This document shows, piece after piece, positions 1,015 to 32,345 of a stretch of 33,605 bases of DNA (position 1 is its first letter; each line of letters opens with the position of its first letter). Below the pieces are notes generated by a model, which did no database searches, had not been told where the DNA came from, and worked only from the letters and a program-made list of their open reading frames with translations. This DNA comes from Methylobacter sp. GTDB taxonomy: Bacteria > Pseudomonadota > Gammaproteobacteria > Methylococcales > Methylomonadaceae. The stretch spans positions 1 to 33,605 of the forward strand of contig SCPZ01000110.1 in the NCBI GenBank assembly GCA_004299305.1. The letters are read 5' to 3'. Made by a program: the position numbers and the translations under genes.

Positions 1015-1107
1015 CATCAATATGACGACATTGCAAGAATACCAAGCCAGGTAATCTGACGGCGTTTTGTTGGTTAGAAGGATATTCGTTTGTTATTCGC
1101 TTGATTT

Positions 1108-1116
1108 TGATATGAT
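1108..1116 (+). promoter_or_regulatory. Candidate extended -10 promoter for the RiPP operon
   Basis: TGATATGAT (TG-n-TATGAT) is a good extended -10 box, with a poor -35-like TTGTTA at 1090-1095 only 15 bp upstream of TATGAT. It would give an 80-base leader before the precursor gene at 1201. Bufferin-type operons can instead be driven by ECF sigma factors or copper sensors; no clear CueR-type dyad was seen. Confidence 0.4.
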
Positions 1117-1200
1117 AAGACGCACTCGATGCGATTTACGTATCGATTCATACCCCGCCTAACCGTTGGGAACAGATTGAAACAACACTCTGGAGTCAAA

Positions 1201-1599
1201 ATGAAAAAAAATAATAAAACACCTTTAGCTGTTGCAATGGGTGCTGCTTTTCTGTCTACTTTTGCTGCAACTGCGGTTAATGCCGAAGCTAATCCTTTCG
1301 GAATGACTGAATTATCGACCGGTTACATGCAAGTCGCAGAAGCCGATAAAGCGGCTGAAATGTCATGCGGCGCGTCAATGGGCGGCATGGCTAAGCCTAA
1401 GGCAGCGGAAGGCGCATGTGCCGGCAATAAAAAACCTGAGGCCGCTAAGGCTACTGAAGGCAAATGCGGTGAAAGCAAATGCGGCGCTATGATGCAAGGC
1501 GATAAAATGAAGCCGGGTATGGAAGCTGCCTGCGGCGCAATGATGAAAGGTAAAGAAGGTTCATGCGGCAACATGTCTAAAGACGCAACCGGCAAATAA
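1201..1599 (+). CDS. hvfA: HvfA-like Cys-rich RiPP precursor (copper-binding peptide family)
   Basis: Predicted 132-residue secreted precursor of a modified metal-binding peptide. The ATG at 1201 is preferred over an in-frame ATG at 1129 because it has CTGGAG upstream and starts a typical signal peptide: MKKNNK, a hydrophobic stretch to about residue 26, then AVNA-EA. A conserved leader block NPFGMTELSTGYMQVAE (31-47) is followed by a low-complexity Lys/Gly/Ala/Met core with six cysteines (56, 73, 89, 94, 111, 122), mostly in xxxCG contexts. Only one unit is the canonical EGKCG (86-90), followed by ESKCG (91-95). In characterised HvfA, EGKCG cysteines are converted to oxazolone/thioamide groups that bind copper. 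The next two genes encode the matching modification enzyme and partner. Modification and metal here are inferred from the family. Confidence 0.88.
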   Translation: MKKNNKTPLAVAMGAAFLSTFAATAVNAEANPFGMTELSTGYMQVAEADKAAEMSCGASMGGMAKPKAAEGACAGNKKPEAAKATEGKCGESKCGAMMQGDKMKPGMEAACGAMMKGKEGSCGNMSKDATGK

Positions 1600-1624
1600 G
1601 CCTAAGTTTCTATTCTTAGCACAA

Positions 1625-1650
1625 GGGGGAGCATGATCATCATGCCCCCC
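1625..1650 (+). terminator. Strong hairpin between precursor gene and MNIO gene
   Basis: GGGGG-A-GCATGA at 1625-1636 pairs with TCATGC-CCCCC at 1640-1650 around a 3-base loop. No T-run follows, so it is unlikely to be a full intrinsic terminator. Position suggests that it limits read-through or protects the 3' end of the precursor mRNA, so that precursor is made in excess over enzyme. It also buries an in-frame ATG at 1633, an argument against that start. Confidence 0.6.
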
Positions 1651-1680
1651 AATTCCCATCAAATCACACAAGGTGTTCTT

Positions 1681-2532
1681 ATGGACACGACTCAAAATCT
1701 CGTTCACGGCGCCGGTTTAGGCCTGCGGCGGTCTTTTTTAAGCCAGATTGTTGAAACGCCTCCAGAGGATGTCGACTTTTATGAAGTTGCGCCGGAAAAC
1801 TGGATCACCATCGGCGGCAAGCTAGGCAAACAATTTCGTGCGATGACCGAGCGCTTTGACTTTATCGGTCATGGCTTGTCGCTATCGATAGGCGGCACCG
1901 ACCCGTTGGATGAAAAATTCGTCCGCGAAATCAAACAGTTCAACGCCGAACATCAAATCAAGTTTTACAGCGAACATTTAAGTTATTGCAGCAAGAACGG
2001 GCATTTATACGATTTGATGCCGATTCCGTTTACCTCGGAAGCGGTTACTCACGTTGCCGGACGGATCAGGCGCGTTCAGGATATTATGGAGCAAAAGATA
2101 GCCATAGAAAATGTATCCTATTACGCCGCTCCCGGCCAGGAAATGGCCGAGATTGATTTTTTCAATGCGGTAATCGAAGAAGCCGACTGCGATGTGCTGA
2201 TCGACATTAATAACATTTACGTGAACAGCGTTAACCACGGTTACGATGCCGAAGCGTTCTTAAAAGCCATGCCCGCCCACCGTATTGCTTATGCGCATAT
2301 CGCCGGACATTACGTCGAAGCTGAAGACTTTTTGGTTGACACCCACGGCGCTGAGGTTATCGATCCGGTCTGGAAACTGCTGGGCAAGGCTTATGAGCTT
2401 TACGGCGTGTTTCCGACCTTGTTGGAGAGGGATTTTAATATTCCTGCCATGGAAGAATTAATCAAGGAAGTTAACACCATCAGCGCCATACAAAAAGCCT
2501 GGGGAACGCAACATGCACAGCAATCCGCTTGA
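1681..2532 (+). CDS. hvfB: DUF692 multinuclear non-heme iron oxidase (HvfB/BufB/MbnB family)
   Basis: A TIM-barrel iron enzyme that installs oxazolone/thioamide or related groups on cysteines of a RiPP precursor, in the cytoplasm. The 283-residue product shows the family's ligand positions: His64 in FIGHGLS, Glu98-His99 in SEHLSY, Glu143-Asn144 in AIENVS, Asp175-Asn177 in LIDINNIYVN, His206 and His210 in AHIAGH, Asp220-His222 in DTHG, and Glu249 in LLERD. Start 1681 is chosen because AAGGTG lies about six bases upstream, and the earlier in-frame ATG (1633) sits inside a hairpin. It follows the Cys-rich precursor and overlaps the DUF2063 gene, the classic three-gene layout. MbnB of methanobactin operons is a relative, but no mbnC-like gene is present. 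Confidence 0.93.
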   Translation: MDTTQNLVHGAGLGLRRSFLSQIVETPPEDVDFYEVAPENWITIGGKLGKQFRAMTERFDFIGHGLSLSIGGTDPLDEKFVREIKQFNAEHQIKFYSEHLSYCSKNGHLYDLMPIPFTSEAVTHVAGRIRRVQDIMEQKIAIENVSYYAAPGQEMAEIDFFNAVIEEADCDVLIDINNIYVNSVNHGYDAEAFLKAMPAHRIAYAHIAGHYVEAEDFLVDTHGAEVIDPVWKLLGKAYELYGVFPTLLERDFNIPAMEELIKEVNTISAIQKAWGTQHAQQSA

Positions 2533-3304
2533 GACCGTTATGAGCGTGGACTTTAAAGCCAAACAGCTTGAATTTGCCGCCTATATTAGGGATCCCGAAA
2601 ACAATCCTCCGCCTGCCGATGTCCAGCCGCAGCGGATGGCGATGTATCGCGAGCTGTTTTTTAACAATATCGACAGTTTTTTGTCCGCCAATTTTCCAGT
2701 GTTGCGGACATTATTGAATAGTAAGCAATGGTTCGAATTAGGACAGGATTTTTTCGCCAAACATGCCAGTCAATCGCCGCATTTTTCGGAAATTCCTGAA
2801 GAGTTTTTGGATTATCTGCAAAACGAGCGGGACAGTGCGGATGATTTCCCGTTTATGCTGGAGCTGGCGCATTACGAATGGGTGGAAATGGCTTTGTCCA
2901 TCTCTAAGGAAACCGTGCCCGCCAATCCCCCTAATTCGGATAACCTCTCCTACCAGCGCATCCGCTTGTCGCCTTTGGCTTGGCCGCTGGCTTATCAATA
3001 TCCGGTCCATAAAATATCGCCCGCCTTCTTACCGGTAACCGCACCGGATTTAGCCACATTCCTGATTGTTTACCGTGATTTGCATGATGAGGTTAATTTC
3101 ATCGAAATCACCCCGCTCACTTATCGGTTGCTGGAAATTATTCAAGAGCATGAGGAAATGCCGACAATGGATTGTCTAAAGCAGGTTGCGGAGGAATCGA
3201 ATCATCCGAACCCTGAAATGATTATGACGGGAGGCCAGGCAATACTCAAAGAGCTGGTTGAGAAGACGGTTATCACGCTTGTTGATCTGGGTAGGCCGGA
3301 ATAA
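2513..3304 (+). CDS. hvfC: DUF2063 RiPP partner protein (HvfC/BufC family)
   Basis: Partner of the DUF692 oxidase, expected to bind the precursor leader and present the core to the enzyme. The N-terminal ~100 residues carry the DUF2063 ('putative DNA-binding') pattern: FAAYIRDPENNPPP, then RMAMYRELFFNNIDSFLSANFPVLRTLL; despite the domain name, the role in RiPP operons is partner protein. The 263-residue reading uses ATG 2513, which overlaps the oxidase gene by 20 bases and has GGGGAA six bases upstream; ATG 2540 (MSVDFKAK) is an equally possible start. The final residues GRPE and the stop codon lie inside a dispersed palindrome (3291-3345), so the natural C-terminus may have been altered by repeat insertion. 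No DoxX-like HvfD gene follows. Confidence 0.9.
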   Translation: MHSNPLETVMSVDFKAKQLEFAAYIRDPENNPPPADVQPQRMAMYRELFFNNIDSFLSANFPVLRTLLNSKQWFELGQDFFAKHASQSPHFSEIPEEFLDYLQNERDSADDFPFMLELAHYEWVEMALSISKETVPANPPNSDNLSYQRIRLSPLAWPLAYQYPVHKISPAFLPVTAPDLATFLIVYRDLHDEVNFIEITPLTYRLLEIIQEHEEMPTMDCLKQVAEESNHPNPEMIMTGGQAILKELVEKTVITLVDLGRPE

Positions 3305-3353: not shown

Positions 3354-3815
3354 TCAATTAGTTTGTGGCACTCTGGTAAAATCCGGTCCTTTAGGATGAG
3401 CGTTCTGTTGCAGGCAATGGTAAGCCGCATTTTCATACTTGATGACTAACGACTGGGCATTTTTATGCTCGCCTAGGAACAGTTGAGCTTCATCGGCAGT
3501 TAAGTCTTTCATCAAATATTTGGCGATGCACATGCACGGCGTAGCGTAGCGCATTTTATCGAATTCTATGTTGGTCGAATTCTTCAGTTCCCTTTGCACG
3601 CATTGGTCGGCAAAATCATGTTCAAACTTGTGCTTTTGTATATCGGTCACCGGGGTATCGTGGGAATGATCGAACGGATTATGCGCAACAGCAGCGGGCG
3701 CCGATTTTGCTGCTACGGGTTTTTCATCATCGGAACAGCCTGCAACCGATAAGGCGATAACCACGCAGGCCAACGCAGAAAAAAAGAAGTTTCTTGTAAA
3801 AGTAGGTGTTTTCAT
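3354..3815 (-). CDS. Small Cys/His-containing lipoprotein of unknown function
   Basis: Function not recognised. The 153-residue product starts with a lipoprotein signal peptide (Lys2/Arg8, hydrophobic core 10-26) and lipobox VAGC, with acylated Cys27. The next residue is Ser, so outer-membrane sorting is likely by the Lol rule. The mature part has HNPFDHSHD (45-53) with three histidines, and four further cysteines: Cys72, Cys94 and Cys96 (CMC), and Cys134. These could form disulfides or bind metal in the periplasm. It converges on the copper-RiPP operon, which makes a metal-related role imaginable, but that is only an inference from position and residues. A 165-base gap separates it from glnE, with which it is divergent. 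Confidence 0.8.
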   Translation of the reverse strand: MKTPTFTRNFFFSALACVVIALSVAGCSDDEKPVAAKSAPAAVAHNPFDHSHDTPVTDIQKHKFEHDFADQCVQRELKNSTNIEFDKMRYATPCMCIAKYLMKDLTADEAQLFLGEHKNAQSLVIKYENAAYHCLQQNAHPKGPDFTRVPQTN

Positions 3816-19397: not shown

Positions 19398-20933
19398 TCA
19401 ACTTTCAATAAGCGCCAGCCGTTTTAGCAAGCGATGAAAATTCCCCCTATCCAGCCCTAGTGCGCGTGCTGTAGCAGCCATATTGCCCTGTTGAGCTGCA
19501 AGTTGCTGACGGATGATCCGGCGCTGAAACTCATCAACTGTATTTTTAAAATCTATCGGTGCGGATGAAACCGTTTCGGTGCTGATATTCGGAGGATTCA
19601 ACGGCTCAAGCACTATATCCAAATAGGCCGTAGAAATAGTTATAAAATCAGCCTGGCGATTTTCCGGGCTTGCCGATTTTAGCGCGGCCCGGCTCAGTAA
19701 ATGCTCCAATTCTCGAATATTACCCGGCCAGTGGTAAGCCAATAACGCTTTTTTGGCGTCTTGATCCAAACGCAGTTTTTTAATACCCAGACGCTGCTGG
19801 TTTTTTTCCAAAAAAGCGCCTGCCAGCAATAAAATGTCTTTGCCCCGCTCGCGCAATGCCGGAACATGCATCGGATAAACGGCCAGACGGTGATAAAGAT
19901 CAGGGCGAAACAACCCTGCCGCAACTTCTTGTTGCAGATTGCGGTTGGTTGCAGCAATGACCCGCACATTAACTTTGATTTGTTGATCGCTGCCGACACG
20001 CTGTATCTCGCCATTTTGCAAGGTACGCAATAACTTGGCCTGAATCGAAAGCGGCAATTCGCCGATCTCATCCAGGAAAATCGTGCCGCCGTTAGCCAGC
20101 TCAAACTTGCCTGCTCTATCATTAATCGCGCCGGAAAATGCGCCTTTGCTGTGGCCGAATAATTCGCTCTCGGCAATAGTCTCAGGCAATGCCGCGCAAT
20201 TGACGTAGACCATGACTTGCTCGGCGCGATTCGATTCCAGATGAATACGCAGTGCAACCAATTCTTTACCTACCCCCGTTTCGCCCAAAATCAGGACAGC
20301 CAGTTCCGACGGGGCGACGATAGCAATTTCATTGCGTAATTTTCGTATGCATTCGCTGTCACCGATCATATCTTGCTCGGTATTTTCTTTGAATAAAGTT
20401 TGGCTCGCATATCGAACCCGCTGTTCCAAAGAGGCAATCAGCCCCGCCGCCTTGACCGTAGCGGCAGTCAGGCTGATAAAGGTGTTCAGTTGCATCGGGT
20501 CGATGTTGTCGAAACTGCCGGGAGCCAGCGAGTCCATCGTTAAAACGCCCCAGGGTTCCCCATCGATAAGCAGCGTAACACCCATGCAATCATGCACTAA
20601 TAACTGATCGTTATCGGTCTCGATGAGTCCGTCGTAGGGATCGGGCAACCCGGAATCGGCGGCAAAGCGCACCGATTGATTGGCGGCCAAAATCTGCGCC
20701 AAACGCGGATGCTCGCTGACCGCAAAACGTCGTCCCAAGGTATCTTCCGATAGGCCGTTAACCGCCAGCGGTATCAGGTAATGGTTTTCAAATTTAAGCA
20801 ATGCGGAGGCATCGCAAGGAAAAATCCGGCATAAATGTTCTAACAAGCGTTGGTAACGTTGCTCTGCCGACATGTGCGTAGACAGGTCGGCAACAATGGA
20901 AATTAACGAAGTAAAAAATAGGTTTGTCGTCAT
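19398..20933 (-). CDS. norR: NorR-type nitric-oxide-sensing sigma54 activator
   Basis: Bacterial enhancer-binding protein that senses NO at a non-haem iron in its GAF domain and activates sigma54 promoters. Start 20933 (MTTNLFFTS) gives 511 residues, close to E. coli NorR (504); a 33-residue upward extension to 21032 would overlap the predicted control region. The GAF domain has Asp98, Asp101, His114, Cys116 and Asp134 at spacing matching the iron ligands of E. coli NorR. The AAA+ domain has Walker [15 protein letters not shown] in place of the usual GAFTGA, Walker [14 protein letters not shown] and [10 protein letters not shown]. The C-terminal Fis-type helix-turn-helix is [22 protein letters not shown]. 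It is divergent from hcp, its likely target. Confidence 0.93.
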
Positions 20934-20948
20934 AGTGATAACGAAGAT

Positions 20949-20984
20949 GTCAATTAAACAACTTAAAGTCGATGTCAATAGCAC
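20949..20984. promoter_or_regulatory. Two candidate NorR-binding sites
   Basis: GTCAATTAAAC (20949-20959) and GTCAATAGCAC (20974-20984) each fit the GT-N7-AC core of NorR boxes, lie in a direct repeat GATGTCAAT with 25-bp period, and sit about 75-100 bp upstream of the start expected from the sigma54-like promoter at 21026. The motif is short, so the position and repeat are the main support. Confidence 0.45.
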
Positions 20985-21025
20985 AACAGTACCTTGATTA
21001 AACCAACAAACACAAGGTTTTTCGC

Positions 21026-21042
21026 TTGGCATGGTAAGTGCT
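21026..21042 (+). promoter_or_regulatory. Candidate sigma54 (-24/-12) promoter for hcp
   Basis: TTGGCATGGTAAGTGCT has GG and GC ten bases apart and matches the TGGCAY-N-TTGCW pattern except for G in place of the first T of TTGC. It points toward hcp, 245 bases downstream. The long leader contains repeats A and C, which may have been inserted later. Confidence 0.45.
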
Positions 21043-21117
21043 CTTACCTAAGCATTGGGAGAAGCCCAATCAATTTGGCTGCATACATCGGTAAACGCCC
21101 TGCTTTGTTAAAACTTA

Positions 21118-21225
21118 GCACACGGATGACACGGATTTAGACGGATTATTTTTGTTCTCGCTTTATCCGTGTTGATCAGTTAAATCCGTGTCGCCTAGAG
21201 GCGCCTACTTTTGGCATCCGTGTGC
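21118..21225. repeat. Dispersed repeat A with repeat C nested inside
   Basis: GCACACGGATGAC and GGCATCCGTGTGC are inverted ends with one mismatch. Inside are ACACGGATTTAGACGGATT and GTTAAATCCGTGTC. A repeat C copy (21191-21216, core GCGCCTACTTTTGG) interrupts the right arm. The block lies in the 5' leader of hcp. Confidence 0.7.
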
Positions 21226-21287
21226 CATTGCTTTGCTTGCCGATTTAGTGTGTCCGATCTTTAATTTAATCTCTAGGAGAATACCTG

Positions 21288-22955
21288 ATGTTTTGTTACC
21301 AATGCGAACAAACCGATCGTTCTAATGCCGACAGCGGTTGCGCGACGGCCAAAGGCATGTGCGGCAAAGACGCCACAACGTCTGATTTGCAGGATTTGCT
21401 GATTCACGGAGTCAAGGGCATAGCCCAATACGCCAAACGAGCCCGCGCCCTGAATGCCCCGGATAATGCGGCTGACGAGTTCATGTTGTACGCCATGTTC
21501 ACCACCTTGACCAACGTGAACTTTAACGCCACCCGCTTCGTTACCCTGATACAGGAAGCCGCGCAGGTGCGTGACCGGGTCAAGGCGAGTTACATCCAGG
21601 CTGCGCTTGCCGCAGGCGCAACACCTGAACAACTCACCGGCGCCGCTGCCTGGCAACCCGCTGCCGACATGGACGGAATGCTCAAACAGGCCGCCCATGT
21701 CGGCATCAATGCCGGACTCGACCAAGTGGGCCCGGACATTATCGGCCTGCGTTCGCTGGCGCTTTATGGACTCAAAGGCGTTTGCGCCTACGCTCATCAT
21801 GCCTATGTATTAGGCAAGGAAAGCAATGCCGTTTACGCCGGGATCGAAAATGCGCTGGATTTTTTAAGCAACGATCCCACCGATGTCGAAGCGTTGCTGG
21901 CTCAGTCCATGGCCTTGGGTACATTAAACCTTGAAGTAATGGCATTATTGGATGAAGCCAATACCGGCGCTTTCGGCGCTCAACAACCGACTCAAGTCCG
22001 GGTCACCCCGATCAAAGGCAAGGCTATTCTGGTATCCGGTCATGACTTGGGCGATTTGGCCGCTTTGCTGGAGCAAACCAAAGACACCGACATTAATATT
22101 TACACGCATGGCGAGATGCTGCCCGCTCACGCTTATCCTAAGCTCAAAGCTTATCCGCATCTGGTCGGCAATTACGGCGGCGCTTGGCAGGATCAACAAA
22201 AAGAGTTTGCCGAGTTTCCGGGCGCAATTTTGATGACCTCCAACTGCATCATCGAGCCGCAACCTCAATACCGTCAGCGCATTTTTACCGCAGGCCCGGT
22301 AGGCTGGCCCGGCGTGCGTCATATCAGCGACAAGAATTTCGCGCCGTTAATCCAGGCAGCCAACGCATTGCCCGGCTTCAAGGATGACGTCGACGAAAAA
22401 GTCATCACCGTCGGTTTTGGTCGCGATGCAGTATTGGGCGTAGCCGACAAGGTCATTGATGCGGTCAAATCCGGCGCCATTCGCCACTTCTTCCTGGTCG
22501 GCGGCTGTGACGGCGCAGCGCCCGGTCGCAATTACTATAGCGATTTTGCCGAACAGGCCCCACAGGACACCGTGGTAATGACCTTGGGCTGCGCCAAATA
22601 TCGTTTTAACCAACATGACTTCGGCGACATCGGCGGCATTCCACGCCTGCTGGATTTAGGCCAATGCAACGACAGCTACTCGGCGATCAAAATTGCCACC
22701 GCGCTGGCCGGTGCGTTTGAATGCGGCGTGAACGAGCTGCCCTTGTCCCTGGTCGTATCCTGGTTTGAGCAAAAAGCCGCCGCCGTATTGCTGACCTTGC
22801 TGGCGCTGGGTATCCGCAACATTCGCCTTGGTCCCACCTTGCCCGCCTTCCTGACGCCTAACCTGATACAGGTGCTGGTGGATAAATTCGGACTACTGCC
22901 TATTACCACCGCAGAGGCAGACATCGAAGCATCGTTGACGCGCCAAGCGGCTTAA
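21288..22955 (+). CDS. hcp: Hybrid cluster protein (NO/hydroxylamine reductase)
   Basis: Reduces NO to N2O in low-NO conditions and can reduce hydroxylamine; cytoplasmic. The 555-residue protein begins MFCYQCEQ and has Cys3, Cys6, Cys18, Cys25 (C-x2-C-x11-C-x6-C), the pattern of class II Hcp that binds a [2Fe-2S] proximal cluster as in E. coli. Hybrid-cluster regions are visible further on, e.g. [39 protein letters not shown] and [19 protein letters not shown] stands about ten bases upstream of the ATG. norR is divergent and a reductase gene follows, matching a nitrosative-stress unit. In methanotrophs hydroxylamine and NO arise from ammonia co-oxidation (established knowledge); the link to this cell is inferred. 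Confidence 0.97.
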
Positions 22956-22967
22956 TCCTCCCCGCGT

Positions 22968-23004
22968 TGCCGGAAATCCATAAGCTTTTCCGGCAGCATT
23001 TTTT
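22968..23004 (+). terminator. Hairpin plus T-run between hcp and its reductase gene
   Basis: TGCCGGAA (22968-22975) pairs with TTCCGGCA (22988-22995), followed by GC and a run of six T beginning at 22999. This is a good intrinsic terminator or attenuator shape, only a few bases before the reductase ribosome site (TTGGAGA). It should reduce reductase transcript relative to hcp. Confidence 0.65.
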
Positions 23005-23020
23005 GGAGACAAAACAAAAC

Positions 23021-24052
23021 ATGAACACTCACGCTATCGAACTTACCACCCGCGACGGGGAGCGACTCCGTTTCGAATGCGCTGCCGACCGGAACCTGCT
23101 GGAAGCCGCCGCCGATGCCCATATAATATTACCGGCCCAATGCGGTCAGGGTAATTGCGGAACTTGCTATGCCGATGTTAGCCATGGTGACTTTACCTTG
23201 GGCAAGCATAATGCCGCCGCGTTGCCGGACAAGGCGGGCCAGGGCGGTACATTGCTTTGTTGCACCTTTCCTCATAGCGATTTGCGCATTGACCTGCCTT
23301 TTGATCGTGACCGCATCCTGATTGGCGAAATCAAGGTCAGAAACGCCGACATCATCGCCATCGATTCCGTCGGTGAAAATACCCTGCGTTTGGAGCTGCG
23401 TCTTGCGCCGAATGAAGACGACGGCAGCACGGCAGAATTTGAACCCGGCCAGTTCATGGAGCTGGAAGTGCCGGGTCAAGACATCAAACGCGCCTATTCC
23501 CTTGCCAATATCAGCAACTGGGACGGTCGGCTGGAATTTTTGATCCGCCTGCAACCCGGCGGACTTTTCTCCACTTGGCTACGGGAACAGGCAGCTGTCG
23601 GACAGACATTGATCGTTCACGGCCCCAAAGGCGCGTTCGGCTTGTATGAAAGCGGCCTGAGACCGCGCTGGTTTGTAGCTGGCGGCACCGGTCTGGCGCC
23701 TATGCTGTCGATGTTAAGGCGAATGGCCGAGTTTCAGGAACCGCATCCGGCGCGGCTTTATTTCGGCGCAAACCGCGCCGAAGAGTTGTTTTGCCAAGCC
23801 GAGTTGAAAGCGTTGCAAGCGGAACTGCCCCAGCTTCAGGTGATTTTATGTGTCTGGAAGCCGGAAGATAACTGGCAGGGTTTTTGCGGTACGCCGGTAG
23901 ACGCCCTGGCTCAAGACTTGGCGGATGCGAGCATATTACCCGACATTTACCTGTGCGGACCGCCCGCCCTGATCGATGCCGCCGAAGCGGCGGCGCGGGC
24001 AAAAGGCGTACCTGATAATCAGGTGCTGAGCGAAAGATTCTTACCTGCTTAA
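23021..24052 (+). CDS. MmoC-like ferredoxin/FAD/NADH reductase, likely Hcp partner
   Basis: Electron-transfer flavoprotein predicted to pass NADH electrons to Hcp. Start 23021 gives 343 residues; a TTG 54 bases earlier lies in the terminator hairpin and is unlikely. An N-terminal plant-type [2Fe-2S] domain has Cys41, Cys46, Cys49 and Cys80 (or Cys81). It is followed by an FAD domain with RAYSLAN (157-163) and an NAD domain with GGTGLAPMLSMLR (221-233) and YLCGPPALIDAAEAAA. This order (ferredoxin first) is that of MmoC/BenC reductases, whereas E. coli Hcr has its ferredoxin domain at the C-terminus. Position after hcp suggests functional replacement of Hcr. A true mmoC role is unlikely as no mmo genes are here. 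Confidence 0.88.
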   Translation: MNTHAIELTTRDGERLRFECAADRNLLEAAADAHIILPAQCGQGNCGTCYADVSHGDFTLGKHNAAALPDKAGQGGTLLCCTFPHSDLRIDLPFDRDRILIGEIKVRNADIIAIDSVGENTLRLELRLAPNEDDGSTAEFEPGQFMELEVPGQDIKRAYSLANISNWDGRLEFLIRLQPGGLFSTWLREQAAVGQTLIVHGPKGAFGLYESGLRPRWFVAGGTGLAPMLSMLRRMAEFQEPHPARLYFGANRAEELFCQAELKALQAELPQLQVILCVWKPEDNWQGFCGTPVDALAQDLADASILPDIYLCGPPALIDAAEAAARAKGVPDNQVLSERFLPA

Positions 24053-26017: not shown

Positions 26018-27955
26018 CTACTCCGCCAACAACCCCCGCAAATTGTTCATAGCCGTAGCAGCTATCTGACCTTGCAGATTGATATTGTCGATAATCTCCA
26101 ACACGGTACGGGTATCGACAATCGCCTTCACGTTGGGATTAACCGCTTTCAGGTCATAAACCGCCGCGTCAATGTCCGCAGCCTTGGTTTGCGCCTCACG
26201 GACGGCTTTTTCCTTGGCTTTGATCGCCTCTTCGATAGCCGATATTTTACCCTTGTCGGCTTTATCCTTTTTCAACGCTTTCAAATCTTCTTTCAGAGGC
26301 AGCAATGCTTCGGTGAGATTTTTAACCTCTTCCAAAAACGGCTGCATGTCCGCCTGAGCCTTTGCACGTCGCGCGGTAAAATCTACCGTCCAGGAAAAAT
26401 CACTGTCCGCTTCAGGCGTTCCGTGTTTGCCGAGCAACCTTGCTATTGAAGGAAAGGGTTTGCCCTGATTACCCTCCTGTTCCAGCCAGTCAGCGACTAA
26501 TGGCCTCGGCAAATCGGCATCATCTAAAACGCCGCCTTGCTTATCAAAACCAAAATACGCCAAGGTCGTCGGCGTTTTCTTGCCGACTTTAATTTGCGAC
26601 AAATCGTAATACCAGATACGTTCGGTTTTTTTGCCCCTGGTAAAAAACAGCAGATTGGTTTTAACACCGGCCCCCGCCGTTGAAAACACACCGCCGGGCA
26701 AACTGATGATGCACCACAAATCGCATTCATCAACCAGCTTGCGCTTGGTTTCTACAAAAGCGCTTTCATTGGTTCGAAACAACAAGCCTTCATCCAGCAC
26801 AATGCCGCAACGTCCGCCTGCTTTGCCATCCATCGGCATTTTCAGGTCGGCTAAAATATGTTGCAGGAATAAAACCTGGGTCGAACCGGTCTCAAAACTG
26901 TAATTTTTTTGCGCATCCGTGCCTTCCTTGCCGCCGAACGGCGGATTGGTCAGAATCACATCGAACGTGGCCGGGGCTTGCTCAAACAATCCGGCATAAG
27001 TAGGCCGGTTGGTCAGCGTATTGCCGTGCCATAAATTCGGCTGGTCTATGCCGTGCAAAATCAAATTGGCTAAAGCGATAGGAAAAACCAGGTTCTCTTT
27101 TTCCCTGCCGAAAAAGGTATCGTGTTTCAATACATCCAACATCGTCGCGGCAGGCGCATTGCCCAAATTGCGGCTGATATGTTCGAACGCGACCGCCAAA
27201 AAGCCGCCGGTACCGCAACAAGGATCGTAAACCGTTTCCCCGGCCTGCGGATCGAGAATATGCACCATGCCTCGAATCACTTCGCGCGGTGTAAAGAACT
27301 GGCCGCCATCGGAGTTTTTCTCGCCCATTTTCAACAGCAAATCTTCATAGACTTGCGACAAGGTAAAAAAGTGGGTGTCGTCGATATGGTCGATATGGAT
27401 TTCATGCACCTTGTCGAGAATATCGCGCAGATTGGTTTCGCTATCGACCCGCACTTTTTCCACCGCCGTCATAATCCGGCCGATCACCCGCTGTTTGCGG
27501 CTGGCATTGCTATTGGGCAACTGGCTGATAGGATCGACATCCAGACTGTGCAAATGCGGCAGCAGTTCGTTGTTGATAAACTCAAACAGCTTGCCGTCGC
27601 CCGCTGCGTACAGTTCCTTACGCTTCCAGCCGATAGCTTGTTCTCCCGTCTCTTCTTGATCGGCAAACGGCGCAGCCCAATCCTGCCAACGGTACGGTGC
27701 AGTCAAGGCGGGTGCATAATCGTTACCCAAAGCTTCGGCTTGTTCCCGCGCCTTTTGTTCTTGCGCATCCAGAATGCGCAAAAACAGAATCCAGGTTAAT
27801 TCCGGCACATACTGCAAGGCGCTGGCGCAATTGGAGCGGCGCATCACGTCGCAAATGGCTTTGACAAATGAGGATAACGATTGCGTGGAAGCGATGGACT
27901 TGGGCGGTTTGCCTTTTTTCGTTGATTTTAGTGTGTTGATTGGTTTGTTGTTCAT
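26018..27955 (-). CDS. hsdM: Type I restriction-modification methyltransferase subunit
   Basis: N6-adenine methyltransferase subunit that works with HsdS in modification and with HsdR in restriction. The 645-residue protein has an N-terminal helical HsdM domain (residues ~28-190), then GGQFFTPREVIRGMVHIL, SAM motif I DPCCGTGGFL (244-253) and catalytic motif IV NPPF (337-340). The C-terminal part has a Lys-rich coiled coil (about 545-605, LKEDLKALKKDKADKGKISAIEEAIKAKEKAV) for subunit contact. In the transcription order it is last, separated from hsdS by 720 bases holding a RAYT gene, REPs and a gene remnant, so its coexpression with hsdS/hsdR may be changed. The ribosome site is weak. Confidence 0.96.
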   Translation of the reverse strand: MNNKPINTLKSTKKGKPPKSIASTQSLSSFVKAICDVMRRSNCASALQYVPELTWILFLRILDAQEQKAREQAEALGNDYAPALTAPYRWQDWAAPFADQEETGEQAIGWKRKELYAAGDGKLFEFINNELLPHLHSLDVDPISQLPNSNASRKQRVIGRIMTAVEKVRVDSETNLRDILDKVHEIHIDHIDDTHFFTLSQVYEDLLLKMGEKNSDGGQFFTPREVIRGMVHILDPQAGETVYDPCCGTGGFLAVAFEHISRNLGNAPAATMLDVLKHDTFFGREKENLVFPIALANLILHGIDQPNLWHGNTLTNRPTYAGLFEQAPATFDVILTNPPFGGKEGTDAQKNYSFETGSTQVLFLQHILADLKMPMDGKAGGRCGIVLDEGLLFRTNESAFVETKRKLVDECDLWCIISLPGGVFSTAGAGVKTNLLFFTRGKKTERIWYYDLSQIKVGKKTPTTLAYFGFDKQGGVLDDADLPRPLVADWLEQEGNQGKPFPSIARLLGKHGTPEADSDFSWTVDFTARRAKAQADMQPFLEEVKNLTEALLPLKEDLKALKKDKADKGKISAIEEAIKAKEKAVREAQTKAADIDAAVYDLKAVNPNVKAIVDTRTVLEIIDNINLQGQIAATAMNNLRGLLAE

Positions 27956-27970
27956 ATTTCATTACATTTT

Positions 27971-27993
27971 GTAGGAGCGGGCCATGCCCGCGA
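27971..27993. repeat. Single REP sequence upstream of hsdM
   Basis: GTAGGAGCGGGCCATGCCCGCG: hairpin GCGGGC-CAT-GCCCGC preceded by GTAGGA. It matches the units forming the REPIN pairs at 28584-28651 and 29243-29310. Confidence 0.85.
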
Positions 27994-27994
27994 A

Positions 27995-28115
27995 AAACTT
28001 TCTTGCCACCTCAGATAACCTGAAGCCGGGGAGTTAATATCTTGCGCCTGAACCGACTTCAACCATTACGAGGACATCCTCGAAATGGTCTTCAACCACC
28101 TGATTACTGTTGCAG
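27995..28115 (-). pseudogene. dinD: Decayed fragment resembling DNA-damage-inducible protein D
   Basis: On the minus strand a frame reads CNSNQVVEDHFEDVLVMVEVGSGARY, then an in-frame TAA (28034-28036), then LPGFRLSEVA. As I recall E. coli DinD, this resembles its conserved stretch with VEDHFIDVNKMVEIGSGA followed by the HLSRYA region. Only this short piece survives, squeezed between the RAYT gene and a REP. DinD-like genes are known passengers in type I restriction operons. Function is surely lost. The match is from memory and needs a search. Confidence 0.6.
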
Positions 28116-28122
28116 CGAACAA

Positions 28123-28638
28123 TCAAACCCAAATCGCATTCCAAAACGGATAATCCCCTACCCGTTGAACCAACCCTGCCCGCAAAGGATTGGCAATAAT
28201 GTATCGGGCAATATTGAGTAAATCCTCCTCGGCGCGTAAAGCGTGATCGTGATACCCCGGTTCCCATAGCGTCCCGCTACGTTCAAGAATACGATTCGCC
28301 AATCTTGAACTGGACGATTTCAGCCGATTGACAACAATGCTCAAGTTATCTTGATTGCCCAAACCAACAAGCCAGTGTGCATGATCCGGCATCAGAACCC
28401 AAGCGAGCATTCGGGCATCACCAAGAATTTCGTTGTTTTCAAAGCACCGGGCAGCCGCACAACCAGCGTTAAATTCACCAAAAAAACGTTGCCGGTTAAG
28501 CGTTGTAGCGGTTATCAGATAAACGTGGTTGGGTAAAGACACGCGTCCCTTGCGCAAAGCCTGATGTCCGGGGCGATTTTTTTGTAGGAGCGGGCCGTGC
28601 CCGCGAATGAGTAACGACATAATTCTAATCGCGGGCAC
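28123..28638 (-). CDS. REP-associated tyrosine transposase (RAYT, Y1 HUH family)
   Basis: Single-strand DNA transposase that acts on REP hairpins. The 171-residue reading has the HUH motif MPDHAHWL (His86, His88) and the catalytic tyrosine in IARYIIANPLRAGLV (Tyr146), plus FFGEF and GTLWEPGYHDHALR typical of the family. REPs of one family flank it on both sides, as expected for a RAYT and its own repeats. The first ~30 residues are encoded by the neighbouring REPIN and are probably not translated; a GTG at VSLPNHVYL or a TTG slightly upstream may be the true start. It is inserted between hsdS and hsdM in the same orientation. It looks intact. Confidence 0.92.
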   Translation of the reverse strand: MPAIRIMSLLIRGHGPLLQKNRPGHQALRKGRVSLPNHVYLITATTLNRQRFFGEFNAGCAAARCFENNEILGDARMLAWVLMPDHAHWLVGLGNQDNLSIVVNRLKSSSSRLANRILERSGTLWEPGYHDHALRAEEDLLNIARYIIANPLRAGLVQRVGDYPFWNAIWV

Positions 28639-28651
28639 GGCCCGCTCCTAC
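28584..28651. repeat. REPIN (inverted REP pair) at the 5' end of the RAYT gene
   Basis: GTAGGAGCGGGCC at 28584 and GGCCCGCTCCTAC ending at 28651 are perfect inverted units, each with its own GCGGGC/GCCCGC hairpin, and spaced by GAATGAGTAACGACATAATT-type DNA. Length 68 bp. Confidence 0.9.
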
Positions 28652-28677
28652 AACGAATTTATTGACACATCGCATTC

Positions 28678-29940
28678 TTATTTCTGCTCAAAGGCTTGGG
28701 CAAGCAAGCGTTCAGGGATTTTATTAAGATCATTCAACTGTTTTTGAATCGCATATTTAACCGGCTTTAACGTGGTCAAAGCTTTAGATGCCCGAAGCTG
28801 TGCTTGATAAGACGGCAGCAGAATCGAACCTTCCGCCAGTCGATTGAACAGCATCCGTTCCCGCACCGCGCCGCGCGCCAATGAATTGATGCATTGCTCG
28901 CCATAAGGCGACCTGAGCCAATAATAAAACCAGCGCGAATCGACCAGTCCGGCTTTACCTTGCAAAGCGACATAATCCGGGCTGGTGATGCCGGGTTCAT
29001 CGTCGTCATCGACAAAGGCAATCGAGCCGATCAGAATACGCATCGGGTTATAAAAAACCGTGCCGCAAAATACCGGCTTGTAGCGTTGCGGCTGTTTTCC
29101 CGGCGGTTCTTTGGCGGGAGCCAAACCGCCGCGGGTTGCGCCCAATACCGGATAGTCCGCCCAGATTTCGCCTATGCCATTTTTGATTTCATCCAACACC
29201 TCACCCAAACGGGTTTCAATGACCGGTGATTGTCCATTTTCGGTAGGAGCGGGCCGCGCCCGCGAACGAGCAACGACCTGACTCAAATCGCGGGCACGGC
29301 CCGCTCCTACGGTTTTGGCGGATGCCGGACCGTCATGAGTTTTGGCGCTTGGCGATTGTTCGATGCTTTCGCGGATGTAGGCATTCGCAAGGTTAACGAT
29401 TTCCTGTTGTTGTAATTCTAAGGCTTTGCGGGCGGTTTCTACTTCGGCGAATTGGGATTTGAGTTTTGCGGCGATTTTGCGTTGTTGATTTAATGGTAGC
29501 CAAGGAATTGACTGAATAAATATCTGCTTATCCGTAATGGCAGGATATAACGCGCCTTGAACAAGAGCAGCCAATGAATCAACAAACAACCTTGATTGTG
29601 TAAAATAAAACAAATAGTCTGGATCTAATTCTGGGCCAGAACGAAGCACACAAAATCCTGTGCTACAAATCCCATCGTGCAATTCACTGGGTACAATCGC
29701 AACCGCATTCAGATTAGGTCTAGTTGTTGAAACAATGACATCATTTTGGCATACCACTTGGCGAGCACGAACAGAAGCAGATTTACCATTTATTCTCTGA
29801 GGGGAAGTAATTTGTTTAGTTATATTATCAACAGCAGAAATATCAATGTACCAAAACTCCTTGTCAGGCTGAGCTTTTGGATTGATAAATATAATATTTC
29901 GTTCACACAAATCATTTAACGGGCGCAAAACAAATTTCAT
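28678..29940 (-). CDS. hsdS: Type I restriction-modification specificity subunit with in-frame REPIN
   Basis: Sequence-recognition subunit of the type I enzyme. The 420-residue protein has the expected two half-repeats: target-recognition domain 1 (about 1-155) with helix NQQRKIAAKLKSQFAEVETARKALELQQQEIVNLANAYI (151-189), and domain 2 (about 240-380) with the final helix ALTTLKPVKYAIQKQLNDLNKIPERLLAQAF. Between them, residues ~211-233 (GAGRARDLSQVVARSRARPA) are encoded by a complete 68-bp REPIN, and the surrounding SPSAKT...ASAKT repeats are also low complexity. The frame is unbroken. Linker length in HsdS can change the spacing of the recognised half-sites, so specificity may be altered. It overlaps hsdR by four bases. 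Confidence 0.93.
   Translation of the reverse strand: MKFVLRPLNDLCERNIIFINPKAQPDKEFWYIDISAVDNITKQITSPQRINGKSASVRARQVVCQNDVIVSTTRPNLNAVAIVPSELHDGICSTGFCVLRSGPELDPDYLFYFTQSRLFVDSLAALVQGALYPAITDKQIFIQSIPWLPLNQQRKIAAKLKSQFAEVETARKALELQQQEIVNLANAYIRESIEQSPSAKTHDGPASAKTVGAGRARDLSQVVARSRARPAPTENGQSPVIETRLGEVLDEIKNGIGEIWADYPVLGATRGGLAPAKEPPGKQPQRYKPVFCGTVFYNPMRILIGSIAFVDDDDEPGITSPDYVALQGKAGLVDSRWFYYWLRSPYGEQCINSLARGAVRERMLFNRLAEGSILLPSYQAQLRASKALTTLKPVKYAIQKQLNDLNKIPERLLAQAFEQK
29243..29310. repeat. REPIN inside the hsdS coding sequence
   Basis: GTAGGAGCGGGCC (29243-29255) and GGCCCGCTCCTAC (29298-29310) are perfect inverted ends. The 68-bp unit matches the one at 28584-28651, including the spacer (GAACGAGCAACGACCTGACT against GAATGAGTAACGACATAATT). 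Confidence 0.92.
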
Positions 29941-32345
29941 ACCCCAAACAACCTCTGTTTAGCCTCAAGAATCACCGCCGCCGGTTTCCCCCATTTTTTC
30001 AAAGCCTCCAAACCGCCCGCCCGACTAATCTCCGGCACTTGCCAAAGCGAATCCGATTCCAGCGCCTCGGTGCCCCCCAAACCAAACTGATGGCCGAAAC
30101 CTTTCAGCACAACCGCGGTATCGCTCGGCATGTCTTCGAACCAGGGTAGATTCCGGTCGAGATAACCTTGGCCGCGTTCTTGCCGTTTTAAAGCTTGGGC
30201 GCGATAACCGTGGTGAGCGAACATGTCGTAATAATCAAAATCCTGCATGTCTTCCAGTTCCCTTAATACTTCCGGCGAGTAGTTTTCGCCGACCAAGTGA
30301 TCGATTAGTTCGCGGCGTTTTTTGTTTTCTATCCACAGTTGCCGAAAATCCTGCAAGTTGCCCGCCTCGCTGAGCACCCGTTGCAGCATTTCCTGGCGGT
30401 ATTCCTCTATCGGGATTTTTACATCCCGGCCTTCGCGGCGGCTCAGGATAAAGCGGCCTTCCGAATTGACGGTGACGGTTTGCCCGCCAATTTGAATGAC
30501 CGGCGGTTCGTCTCCTCCTTTGCCATCATCTCCGCCATCTTCGCCTCCACCGCCGCCGATTTTCTTTTTTCCTGAACTGTGCGCGCTAATAAAATCGGTG
30601 CCGAACAAGTCGGTTACGCCGGTGTAATCGTACAGCCAGAATTTGTATTTTTGCGTGACTTCGTCGATACGGGTGCCGCGTCCGACCATTTGGTAAAACA
30701 GGATGCTGGATTCCAGGTAGCGGAAAAACACCACGGCATTGAGCCGTTCTATATCGACGCCGGTTGCCAGCAAGTCGACGGTACAGGCGATGAAAGCCCG
30801 TTCGCCGGAGCCGCGCATTGGCTCTATCAATTCTCTCCCGCCATTAGCGGTGCCCATGCATTTGAATGCGTAATGTTGTTTGGCGGTGCGGCCCTGTTGC
30901 TTGCACCACGCGCTGTAAAGGTTGTTCATCTGCATAGCAACCCGGTCGGCATGGATTTCGCGGGTGCAAAAAATAATCGCTTTCTGCTCGGGACCGCCGT
31001 GCTGGCAAAGCTGCTTGAACAAATCCTCGCACATGGCCGCAATGCGTTCCGGCATCAGCAGTTGGCTGTCGAAATGCCGGGACGTGTATTGGTCTTTGAT
31101 TTCTTCCTGCCTGATTTCTCTGCCGGTTTTGGCATCAATCGGGTTGGCTTTAAGCACCTCTTCGCTGGTAAAGGTTTTGCCGTCTATCGAGGCCTTGCGT
31201 TTGACGATTTCGCAAGCGGCGAGGTAGCCGTCTTCCTGGGCTTGGATCAGGTTGTATTCGTAAACCGGTTCGCCAAAGTATTTGAGGTTGTTGGCGGTGA
31301 TCAGCGCATCTTCTTTGTTTTGCGTTTTGGATTCGCGCAGTTGCCGGGGCGTGGCGGTCAAACCGATCTGCACCGCATTGGGATTGCGCAGCAACACTTC
31401 GGACCATCGGCCCCAAGCGGAACGGTGGCATTCATCGATGATAATCACGCTGAAGGCATCGGGCGGATAATGTTCACTGAGAAAGCTGGCGGTGTCGTTC
31501 TCTTCATCATCCAGCCCCAAGGTTTGGTAAGTCGCAATATGAATCCGGGCATTTTGGGCGCTGTTTTCGCCTTTGGTATTATTGGTAACGATACGGGCAT
31601 TGTCGCCGAATACCGCTTTGAGTTTGTTGTGGCCTTGAGTGCGCAATTCATCCCGGTCACAAAGAAACAAAGCGGGCTTGGGTAAACGTTGCGCCTGATG
31701 CAAGCGCCACAATAGGTTTGCGGCAATGACGGTTTTACCGGCCCCGGTAGCTAATGCCAACAACACGCGGCTGGGTTGCTGTTGCTGTTCGCAATACAGA
31801 ATTTTTTCAAAGCAGGCGCGGATCGCGGCATCCTGATAATACCGGGCTTTGGGATAGGCGGGACTGTCGGCCATGAATAACAAGGCCGATTCGGGATTGC
31901 CAAGATCAATTCCCGTATCTTTAGCATAACGGATGGTTAACTCGTCATGGCTGGGAAAATGGTCTTTTAGTGAATGCGGCCCGGCCTGCAAACCGCTGGT
32001 TTTATCGTATTCAGCGTATAAATGGCCGTTACTGGCAAACACATATTGAACGCTAAAACGGCTGCATTCGGAATAACCTTTGGCTTGCTGCATGCCTTTG
32101 AGCGGGTCTTCTCCTTCTTTTTTGGCTTCCAGTACGCCGACCGGTAACGGCTTAGGGCTGTCGCCTGCTTGTACGCAAAGCAGGTAATCGGTGCGACCGC
32201 CGCCTGCACGTCTGCGACCTTTATGGCCGATAGCCTCTACCGGCGCAGGAGTTTCCAGTTTGAGTTTGGAATGATGGTCATAGCCTTTTTCGCGAAGCAC
32301 CGGATCAATCAGGTAATAGCGGGTTTCTTGTTCGTTATAGCTCAT
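29937..32345 (-). CDS. hsdR: Type I restriction endonuclease subunit R
   Basis: DNA translocase/nuclease of the type I system. The 802-residue protein has an N-terminal PD-(D/E)xK nuclease with Asp53 in GRTDYLL and Glu73-x-Lys75 in VLEAKKEGED, a Walker A motif ATGAGKT (199-205), DECH helicase motif (304-307, IIIDECHRSAWGRW), TATPRQL and later QMVGRGTRID (motif VI). A Gly/Asp-rich hinge (IGGGGGEDGGDDGKGGD, near 596-612) precedes a C-terminal EcoEI-type domain. Length fits EcoEI-like HsdR. It is first in the operon and its stop overlaps the hsdS start. The gene is intact. Confidence 0.96.
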   Translation of the reverse strand: MSYNEQETRYYLIDPVLREKGYDHHSKLKLETPAPVEAIGHKGRRRAGGGRTDYLLCVQAGDSPKPLPVGVLEAKKEGEDPLKGMQQAKGYSECSRFSVQYVFASNGHLYAEYDKTSGLQAGPHSLKDHFPSHDELTIRYAKDTGIDLGNPESALLFMADSPAYPKARYYQDAAIRACFEKILYCEQQQQPSRVLLALATGAGKTVIAANLLWRLHQAQRLPKPALFLCDRDELRTQGHNKLKAVFGDNARIVTNNTKGENSAQNARIHIATYQTLGLDDEENDTASFLSEHYPPDAFSVIIIDECHRSAWGRWSEVLLRNPNAVQIGLTATPRQLRESKTQNKEDALITANNLKYFGEPVYEYNLIQAQEDGYLAACEIVKRKASIDGKTFTSEEVLKANPIDAKTGREIRQEEIKDQYTSRHFDSQLLMPERIAAMCEDLFKQLCQHGGPEQKAIIFCTREIHADRVAMQMNNLYSAWCKQQGRTAKQHYAFKCMGTANGGRELIEPMRGSGERAFIACTVDLLATGVDIERLNAVVFFRYLESSILFYQMVGRGTRIDEVTQKYKFWLYDYTGVTDLFGTDFISAHSSGKKKIGGGGGEDGGDDGKGGDEPPVIQIGGQTVTVNSEGRFILSRREGRDVKIPIEEYRQEMLQRVLSEAGNLQDFRQLWIENKKRRELIDHLVGENYSPEVLRELEDMQDFDYYDMFAHHGYRAQALKRQERGQGYLDRNLPWFEDMPSDTAVVLKGFGHQFGLGGTEALESDSLWQVPEISRAGGLEALKKWGKPAAVILEAKQRLFGV

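Follow-up and report, generated by a model that had tools for sequence, protein, structure and literature searches.

A predicted HvfABC-type operon with a Met-rich precursor variant in a Methylobacter-like bacterium

On sequence evidence, positions 1201 to 3304 of the window (the whole 33,605-nt stretch of DNA that was analyzed) are an HvfABC-type operon of the EGKCG captophorin/oxazolin kind, the product of which is probably an exported, modified, copper-binding peptide of a known family. The enzymes of this operon are ordinary, and its novelty is a clear Met-rich variant of their substrate. We consider it likely that this captophorin-type operon makes a RiPP of known kind, in a Met-rich form, that buffers Cu(I) in the periplasm of a bacterium using copper for pMMO. 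The features of the operon and its upstream region, in window coordinates, are as follows:

1084 to 1099, plus strand: candidate activator site, an 11-bp direct repeat (ATTCG-N6-ATTCG) that precedes the -10
1108 to 1116, plus strand: extended -10 (TGA TATGAT), a block of the TTTG[AGT]TA[TC]NAT type
1126 to 1146, plus strand: leader hairpin TCGATGCG-ATTTA-CGTATCGA, starting 9 nt past the -10
1201 to 1599, plus strand: hvfA-like RiPP precursor of 132 aa, with a signal-peptide-like start, a EANPFGMTELSTGYMQVA segment and six Cys
1480 to 1569, plus strand: Met-rich conserved core CGAMMQGDKMKPGMEAACGAMMKGKEGSCG within the precursor, its pattern shared with locus-A-type precursors (the type of the window operon)
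1681 to 2532, plus strand: hvfB-like MNIO (DUF692/PF05114) of 283 aa
2513 to 3304, plus strand: hvfC-like DUF2063/RRE partner of 263 aa

Gene content, enzyme families and host

A preliminary description of this DNA had proposed a Cys-rich precursor, a DUF692 oxidase and a DUF2063 partner in tight order, and all three genes were found at these positions, with the start of the HvfC gene overlapping the MNIO gene by 20 bp. An alternative in-frame ATG at 1633 would yield an MNIO of 299 aa instead of 283, but the start at 1681 was preferred because the longest ORF in many relatives starts at an MDTTQNL-type ATG. The assignment to the HvfABC/bufferin-type family was borne out by curated NCBIfam models, with the MNIO scoring 439 bits against NF003818 (HvfB; cut-off 360) and the partner 307 bits against NF050145 (HvfC; cut-off 142). 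Furthermore, the MNIO scored 349 bits against PF05114 (cut-off 25), and the partner exceeded the cut-offs for DUF2063 (PF09836) and NGO1945_C (PF22106) and matched 3DEE with an E value of 1.4e-11.

The ligand residues expected of the oxidase are also present, as the MNIO matches 3BWW (E 5.1e-72) with agreement at the active-site positions, and these are kept in the MNIOs fetched for comparison. Among 101 locus-A-group MNIOs, grouped by locus number and including one row with a gap at several active-site positions, the positions matching N175, D242 and H244 of HvfB by motif are kept in 100 or 101 sequences, as are further His, Glu and Asp positions that we take to be metal ligands. The three HvfB residues belong to site 3 and have been probed by mutation (PMC13419390). 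The MNIO also carries RR and DF at the positions that match, by motif and without a FonB alignment, Arg15/16 and Asp249/Phe250 of FonB, which are reported as marks of the Lys-Cys enzyme class (PMC13097082).

Two other assignments were considered and rejected. For methanobactin, searched through MbnB alone, the MNIO scored 51.6 bits and the best match in the genome 51.4 bits, compared to a cut-off of 325; MbnB is nonetheless a relative, as had been suggested, through kinship in the MNIO superfamily. For bufferins, the BufB model NF050167 gave 265 bits against a cut-off of 310, and the precursor has no Pfam match at E values up to 1, hence no DUF2282 as in bufferin 1.

The host genome contains one PF02461 (AmoA/PmoA family) gene, scoring 433 bits, and MNIOs in records named as Methylobacter share up to 96% identity with that of the window. 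We therefore took the host to be Methylobacter-like and probably a pMMO methanotroph, in agreement with the methanotroph contemplated in the preliminary description; its family, labeled f1 in the genome samples, would be Methylomonadaceae in GTDB. No DoxX gene was found among the neighbors examined (nth, a lipoprotein-like gene and, by eye, further ORFs), and no copper regulator was seen by eye among the neighboring ORFs.

The lipoprotein-like gene (3354 to 3815, minus strand) is convergent with the operon, lacks a Pfam match and encodes HNPFDHSHD and CMC motifs that recur at 15 of the 50 named loci of full length. By eye, an almost perfectly matched inverted repeat, AGACCTTCCAGGTTTT/AAAACCTGGAAGGTCT, was located at 235 to 266, on the upstream side of nth; it is perhaps a REP element, and CueR boxes differ from it in spacing. 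Elsewhere in the window, also by eye, hybrid-cluster protein and reductase-like genes adjoin a NorR-like regulator (19398 to 24052), and type I restriction-like hsdM, hsdS and hsdR genes occupy the minus strand from 26018 to 32345, with a REP-transposase-like gene (28123 to 28638) between the hsdS-like and hsdM-like genes.

The Met-rich precursor variant and its spread

The N terminus of the precursor, MKKNNKTPLAVAMGAAFLSTFAATAVNA, resembles a Sec signal peptide by appearance, and from the NPF motif onward the protein has 6 Cys and 12 Met. Its repeats, read by eye, comprise one EGKCG and one ESKCG, and its Cys contexts include AACG, GACA, MSCG and GSCG. Against the KCGExKCG domain model NF050137 the precursor scores 22.2 bits, over the cut-off of 19.5, and against the HvfA equivalog NF050188 it scores 26.3 bits, under the cut-off of 95. 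Across 42 aligned precursors, the core Cys, Gly and Met positions are invariant or at least 90% conserved, and the N-terminal part is also conserved, in agreement with the reported preference of HvfBC for the full-length precursor including its signal sequence (PMC13419390). An AlphaFold2 prediction for the precursor of a relative (L006, 184 aa, 42 sequences) produced no confident fold (mean pLDDT 49.9, pTM 0.19). A search of the genome for stand-alone extra precursors returned, beyond the window, a second locus, locus B, at E 0.0145, and one weak match with an internal stop at E 0.22.

To place this precursor among its relatives, we took as candidates the Cys-rich ORFs upstream of MNIO genes at 140 loci, drawn from the family of the host and from close kin selected by record name; 109 loci had a candidate, 30 had none and one (L074) had no MNIO match. 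Collapsing identical sequences left 76 distinct locus-A-type and 7 distinct locus-B-type precursors, with L060 and L097 (which look like A-type fragments), L126 (an EAKCG form) and L114 and L115 (Cys-Lys forms, e.g. CSGVNKCNGHNDCK in L114) falling outside both sets. As controls, 70 HvfB loci of the class were used, their MNIOs being located with phmmer, and 57 of the loci gave a candidate; removal by hand of six that were spurious or truncated (L182, L203, L212, L224, L225 and L242) left 51 distinct controls, or 50 after exclusion of L222, which belongs to the host's order. A VTT/DedA-type membrane protein gene lies between precursor and MNIO in Methylomonas fluvii (L086, 3416 to 3997), and a motif of this gene recurs at 5 of the 50 named loci of full length. 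Five loci of mussel symbionts and Methyloprofundus (L099, L103, L106, L109 and L110) have no Cys-rich precursor within 1.8 kb upstream of the MNIO; theirs may be elsewhere or lost.

The core CGxMM...KM[KR]xG...CGxMM is present in 68 of 76 locus-A-type precursors, compared to none of the 50 class controls, and it is likewise absent from the 7 locus-B-type precursors and from those of two other families of the order, f2 (0/15) and f173 (0/13), which are perhaps Methylococcaceae and Cycloclasticus-like bacteria, respectively. The CGxMM motif occurs in 72 of 76 locus-A-type precursors versus 1 of 51 controls, EGKCG is absent from 37 of 76 versus 6 of 51, and the median Met fraction is 0.118 versus 0.032. 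Met is found four residues after 62% of locus-A-type Cys, compared to 12% in controls, and three residues after 42% of them, while general Met-Cys closeness is in modest excess (75% versus 66% in shuffled sequences). The strong Met signal of locus A is a fixed place relative to Cys and not general closeness. Since the locus-A and control precursors are related sequences, small P values do not represent independent events, and the Met enrichment is confounded with ancestry.

The residues flanking Cys bear on how many sites are modified. Locus-A-type Cys are mostly preceded by Ala or Ser instead of Lys, which precedes 19% of them compared to 83% in controls, and 95% are followed by Gly or Ala. 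FonBC is reported to prefer Gly or Ala after Cys, to tolerate in vitro both Ala before and Ala after Cys, and to introduce at most one modification into several substituted motifs (PMC13097082); its Ala tolerance covers the AACG and, in part, the GACA contexts of the window precursor. The low proportion of Lys and the poorly modified motifs would be consistent with conversion of the K-C-G sites only, the A/S-C-G sites remaining free thiols in a mixed thiooxazole and Met/Cys metallothionein-like chelator. Acceptance of Ala before Cys, together with the Gly or Ala after nearly all locus-A-type Cys that matches the FonBC preference, argues against such a peptide, which we regard as rather unlikely.

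The captophorin reading would have modification extend to these Ala and Ser contexts, and the genes it invokes are widespread. At E values up to 0.001, PF05114 matched 23 of 23 genomes of the genus, the host's own included, and 192 of 201 genomes of the family, 191 of them over the cut-off. In a sample of the order, NF003818 matched 119 of 121 genomes, including all 102 good ones, with 105 of 121 over its cut-off; an operon of this copper-peptide family is nearly universal in the order as sampled. None of the 201 family genomes had an MbnB match over the cut-off, and the weaker matches in 190 are expected from MNIO kinship.

Outside the host's family, f2 yielded 15 precursors (from 20 loci, four without a candidate and one, L267, dropped as spurious) with a median of 4 Cys, 90% of which have a Met no more than four residues away (56% in shuffled sequences), and f173 yielded 13 plain EGKCG precursors with almost no Met. 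PF02461 was matched in 30 of the 42 order genomes checked, some of which are incomplete. Met-flanked precursors were found with a match in f2 (10) and f174 (2) and without one in f2 (5) and f171 (1); plain precursors were found with a match in f173 (9, lower-scoring), f169 (1), f170 (1) and f172 (1) and without one in f173 (4) and f172 (1). Met-flanked Cys outside the host's family thus follows family and not detection of an AMO/pMMO gene. Two Met-flanked loci without a PF02461 match, L259 (G445) and L281 (G434), come from genomes rated 100% and 94% complete, respectively; a detectable AMO/pMMO gene is no prerequisite for the predicted peptide variant.

This distribution, with Met-flanked Cys in f2 irrespective of the AMO/pMMO gene and plain forms alongside that gene in f173 (9 of 13), f169 and f170, is also what one might find if the same peptide served solely to detoxify excess copper, the role proposed for bufferins, with Met adding capacity and no supply to pMMO. 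Bufferins are reported to aid growth under copper stress (PMC12452194), and 5-thiooxazole pathways to be often induced by excess copper (PMC13097082). We see detoxification as quite possible, if somewhat short of an even chance; taken alone, however, it offers no reason for the Met-rich core to be kept across the host's family.

Conserved sequences upstream of the operon

Relatives of the window operon share an upstream block composed of two ATTC[A/G] boxes 11 bp apart, both reading ATTCG in the window, followed by TTTGATATGAT and then by the hairpin. The -10 block (TTTG[AGT]TA[TC]NAT type) is present in 36 of 61 distinct upstream regions and absent at, for instance, Methylomonas and Methylotuvimicrobium loci; 27 of the 36 also present a near ATTCA-N6-ATTCA (at least 4/5 per box) in register with it. 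A simple -35/-10 scan found 4 promoters versus 3.7 expected, the conserved promoter not being among them. Sites of OmpR/PhoB-type activators take the form of direct repeats of 11 bp that cover the -35 region, with an extended -10 following, and by analogy with this layout we infer a candidate site for an activator of that type. The only exact genome match to the repeat and -10 pattern is the window itself, and no regulon is claimed because, at one mismatch, 2 further matches compare to 1 in a reversed control.

In the hairpin, 84% of cells are paired, compared to 19-37% for slid versions, although reading the structure from the window's own sequence favors the true register. Six of its eight pairs show two-sided, compensatory changes, a number matched by 18 of 500 shuffles, none of which matched the covariation score. 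The leader has no Rfam match at E values up to 1 in the region 1000-1260, and the hairpin sequence may alternatively be a DNA dyad operator.

No copper-response element was identified at the window operon, and gold and oxidative stress are reported to induce 5-thiooxazole family pathways too (PMC13097082), as would suit a peptide directed primarily at a thiophilic metal other than copper (Hg, Ag or Au) or at an oxidant (hydrogen peroxide). Such a role is improbable, given the copper binding reported for relatives (PMC13097082, PMC12538549) and the probable nature of the host as a pMMO methanotroph.

Besides the putative copper-buffering operon of the window, the genome carries a second captophorin-type operon, locus B, on contig C116 (L246, 8012 to 12021), in which precursor, HvfB and HvfC genes are followed by HD-domain and DoxX genes. 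Locus B (L002/L246) resembles the window operon in gene order and in both enzymes scoring over their cut-offs, and differs from it in its EGGCSG/EGKCG precursor, its downstream genes and its promoter. A FastTree phylogeny of MNIOs, rooted at the midpoint, has locus B as one clade (support 1.0) and locus A as another, which includes 15 further family sequences (support 0.84). All seven locus-B upstream regions contain GTAA[C/G]-N16-CGACTG 63-76 nt ahead of the start. A search for this element on both strands of the window, L246 and L247 (119,214 bases) gave a single occurrence, L246 holding the locus-B copy. Its layout is like that of ECF sigma promoters, and the element looks like a candidate promoter of this class.

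Proposed function and comparison with known systems

The oxazolone/thioamide chemistry of the preliminary description has been superseded, the structure of oxazolin having been revised to 5-thiooxazole, and enzymes of the HvfB type are reported to convert Cys to 5-thiooxazole with loss of 4 H (PMC13097082). In the proposed mechanism, transcription would start from the activator-type promoter with its extended -10, giving an mRNA that begins with the hairpin. HvfC, through its RRE, would recruit the precursor bearing its Sec-type signal, and the Fe-dependent MNIO HvfB would oxidize Cys in x-Cys-Gly/Ala steps to 5-thiooxazole, each with loss of 4 H, so that up to six sites would be modified (-24 Da). 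The modified peptide would then be exported to the periplasm, where thiooxazoles and the Met thioethers located 3 and 4 residues after several Cys may hold Cu(I), the sharing of Cu(I) by the thioethers being suggested by their position alone. It would there act as a copper buffer in a bacterium using copper for pMMO.

The captophorin reading is supported by both enzymes scoring over curated cut-offs with conserved active-site residues, by RR and DF positions as in the Lys-Cys enzyme class, by the Ala tolerance of FonBC, and by the wide MNIO/HvfB spread in family and order together with the conserved core Cys, Gly and Met. Copper binding is suggested by the relatives fontiphorin and gonophorin, reported to bind copper (PMC13097082), and bulbicupramide, a reported copper chelator (PMC12538549). 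Counting against this reading are the HvfA equivalog score, the single EGKCG unit, the lack of a DoxX gene or copper regulator seen alongside, a Met enrichment that is confounded with ancestry and follows family elsewhere in the order, and the low-confidence AlphaFold model of a relative's precursor.

The Met-rich peptide is a candidate for the copper handling done elsewhere by methanobactin. More specifically, in methanotrophs of the family, whose sampled genomes lack MbnB over the cut-off, the putative Met-rich thiooxazole peptide (CGxMM) could be a periplasmic Cu(I) store and pMMO donor with its own activator and leader hairpin. We put this forward as a long shot, because Met-flanked Cys follows family and not AMO/pMMO detection in the order sample; if true, it would make the Met-rich thiooxazole peptide the missing copper peptide of the family's methanotrophs. 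The precursors also offer a natural substrate series, from K-C-G to A-C-G-x-M-M, for MNIO specificity. Among titles and the beginnings of abstracts, subscription papers and supplements aside, we found no published account of the Met-rich variant or of such peptides in methanotrophs.

Compared to known systems, the window operon is closest to HvfABC/oxazolin of Haemophilus influenzae, the EGKCG captophorins (fontiphorin and gonophorin) and Buf_EGKCG, sharing the precursor-MNIO-partner organization, one EGKCG unit and enzymes that pass the same NCBIfam equivalogs. Unlike those of HvfABC and the captophorins, however, the window-type precursor is Met-rich with a CGxMM core, has mostly A/S-C-G sites across its group and fails the HvfA equivalog. 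Bulbicupramide (mmr operon, Microbulbifer) also derives from an MNIO/DUF2063/Cys-rich precursor operon, reported as conserved genus-wide, but its precursor has repeating EGKCG units (PMC12538549). Bufferins 1 and 2 (DUF2282, Buf_6/12Cys) share the MNIO and DUF2063 pair. Finally, methanobactin (MbnABC) is a copper peptide of methanotrophs made with an enzyme of the same MNIO superfamily, whereas the window operon has a DUF2063 partner and a precursor with a signal-peptide-like start.
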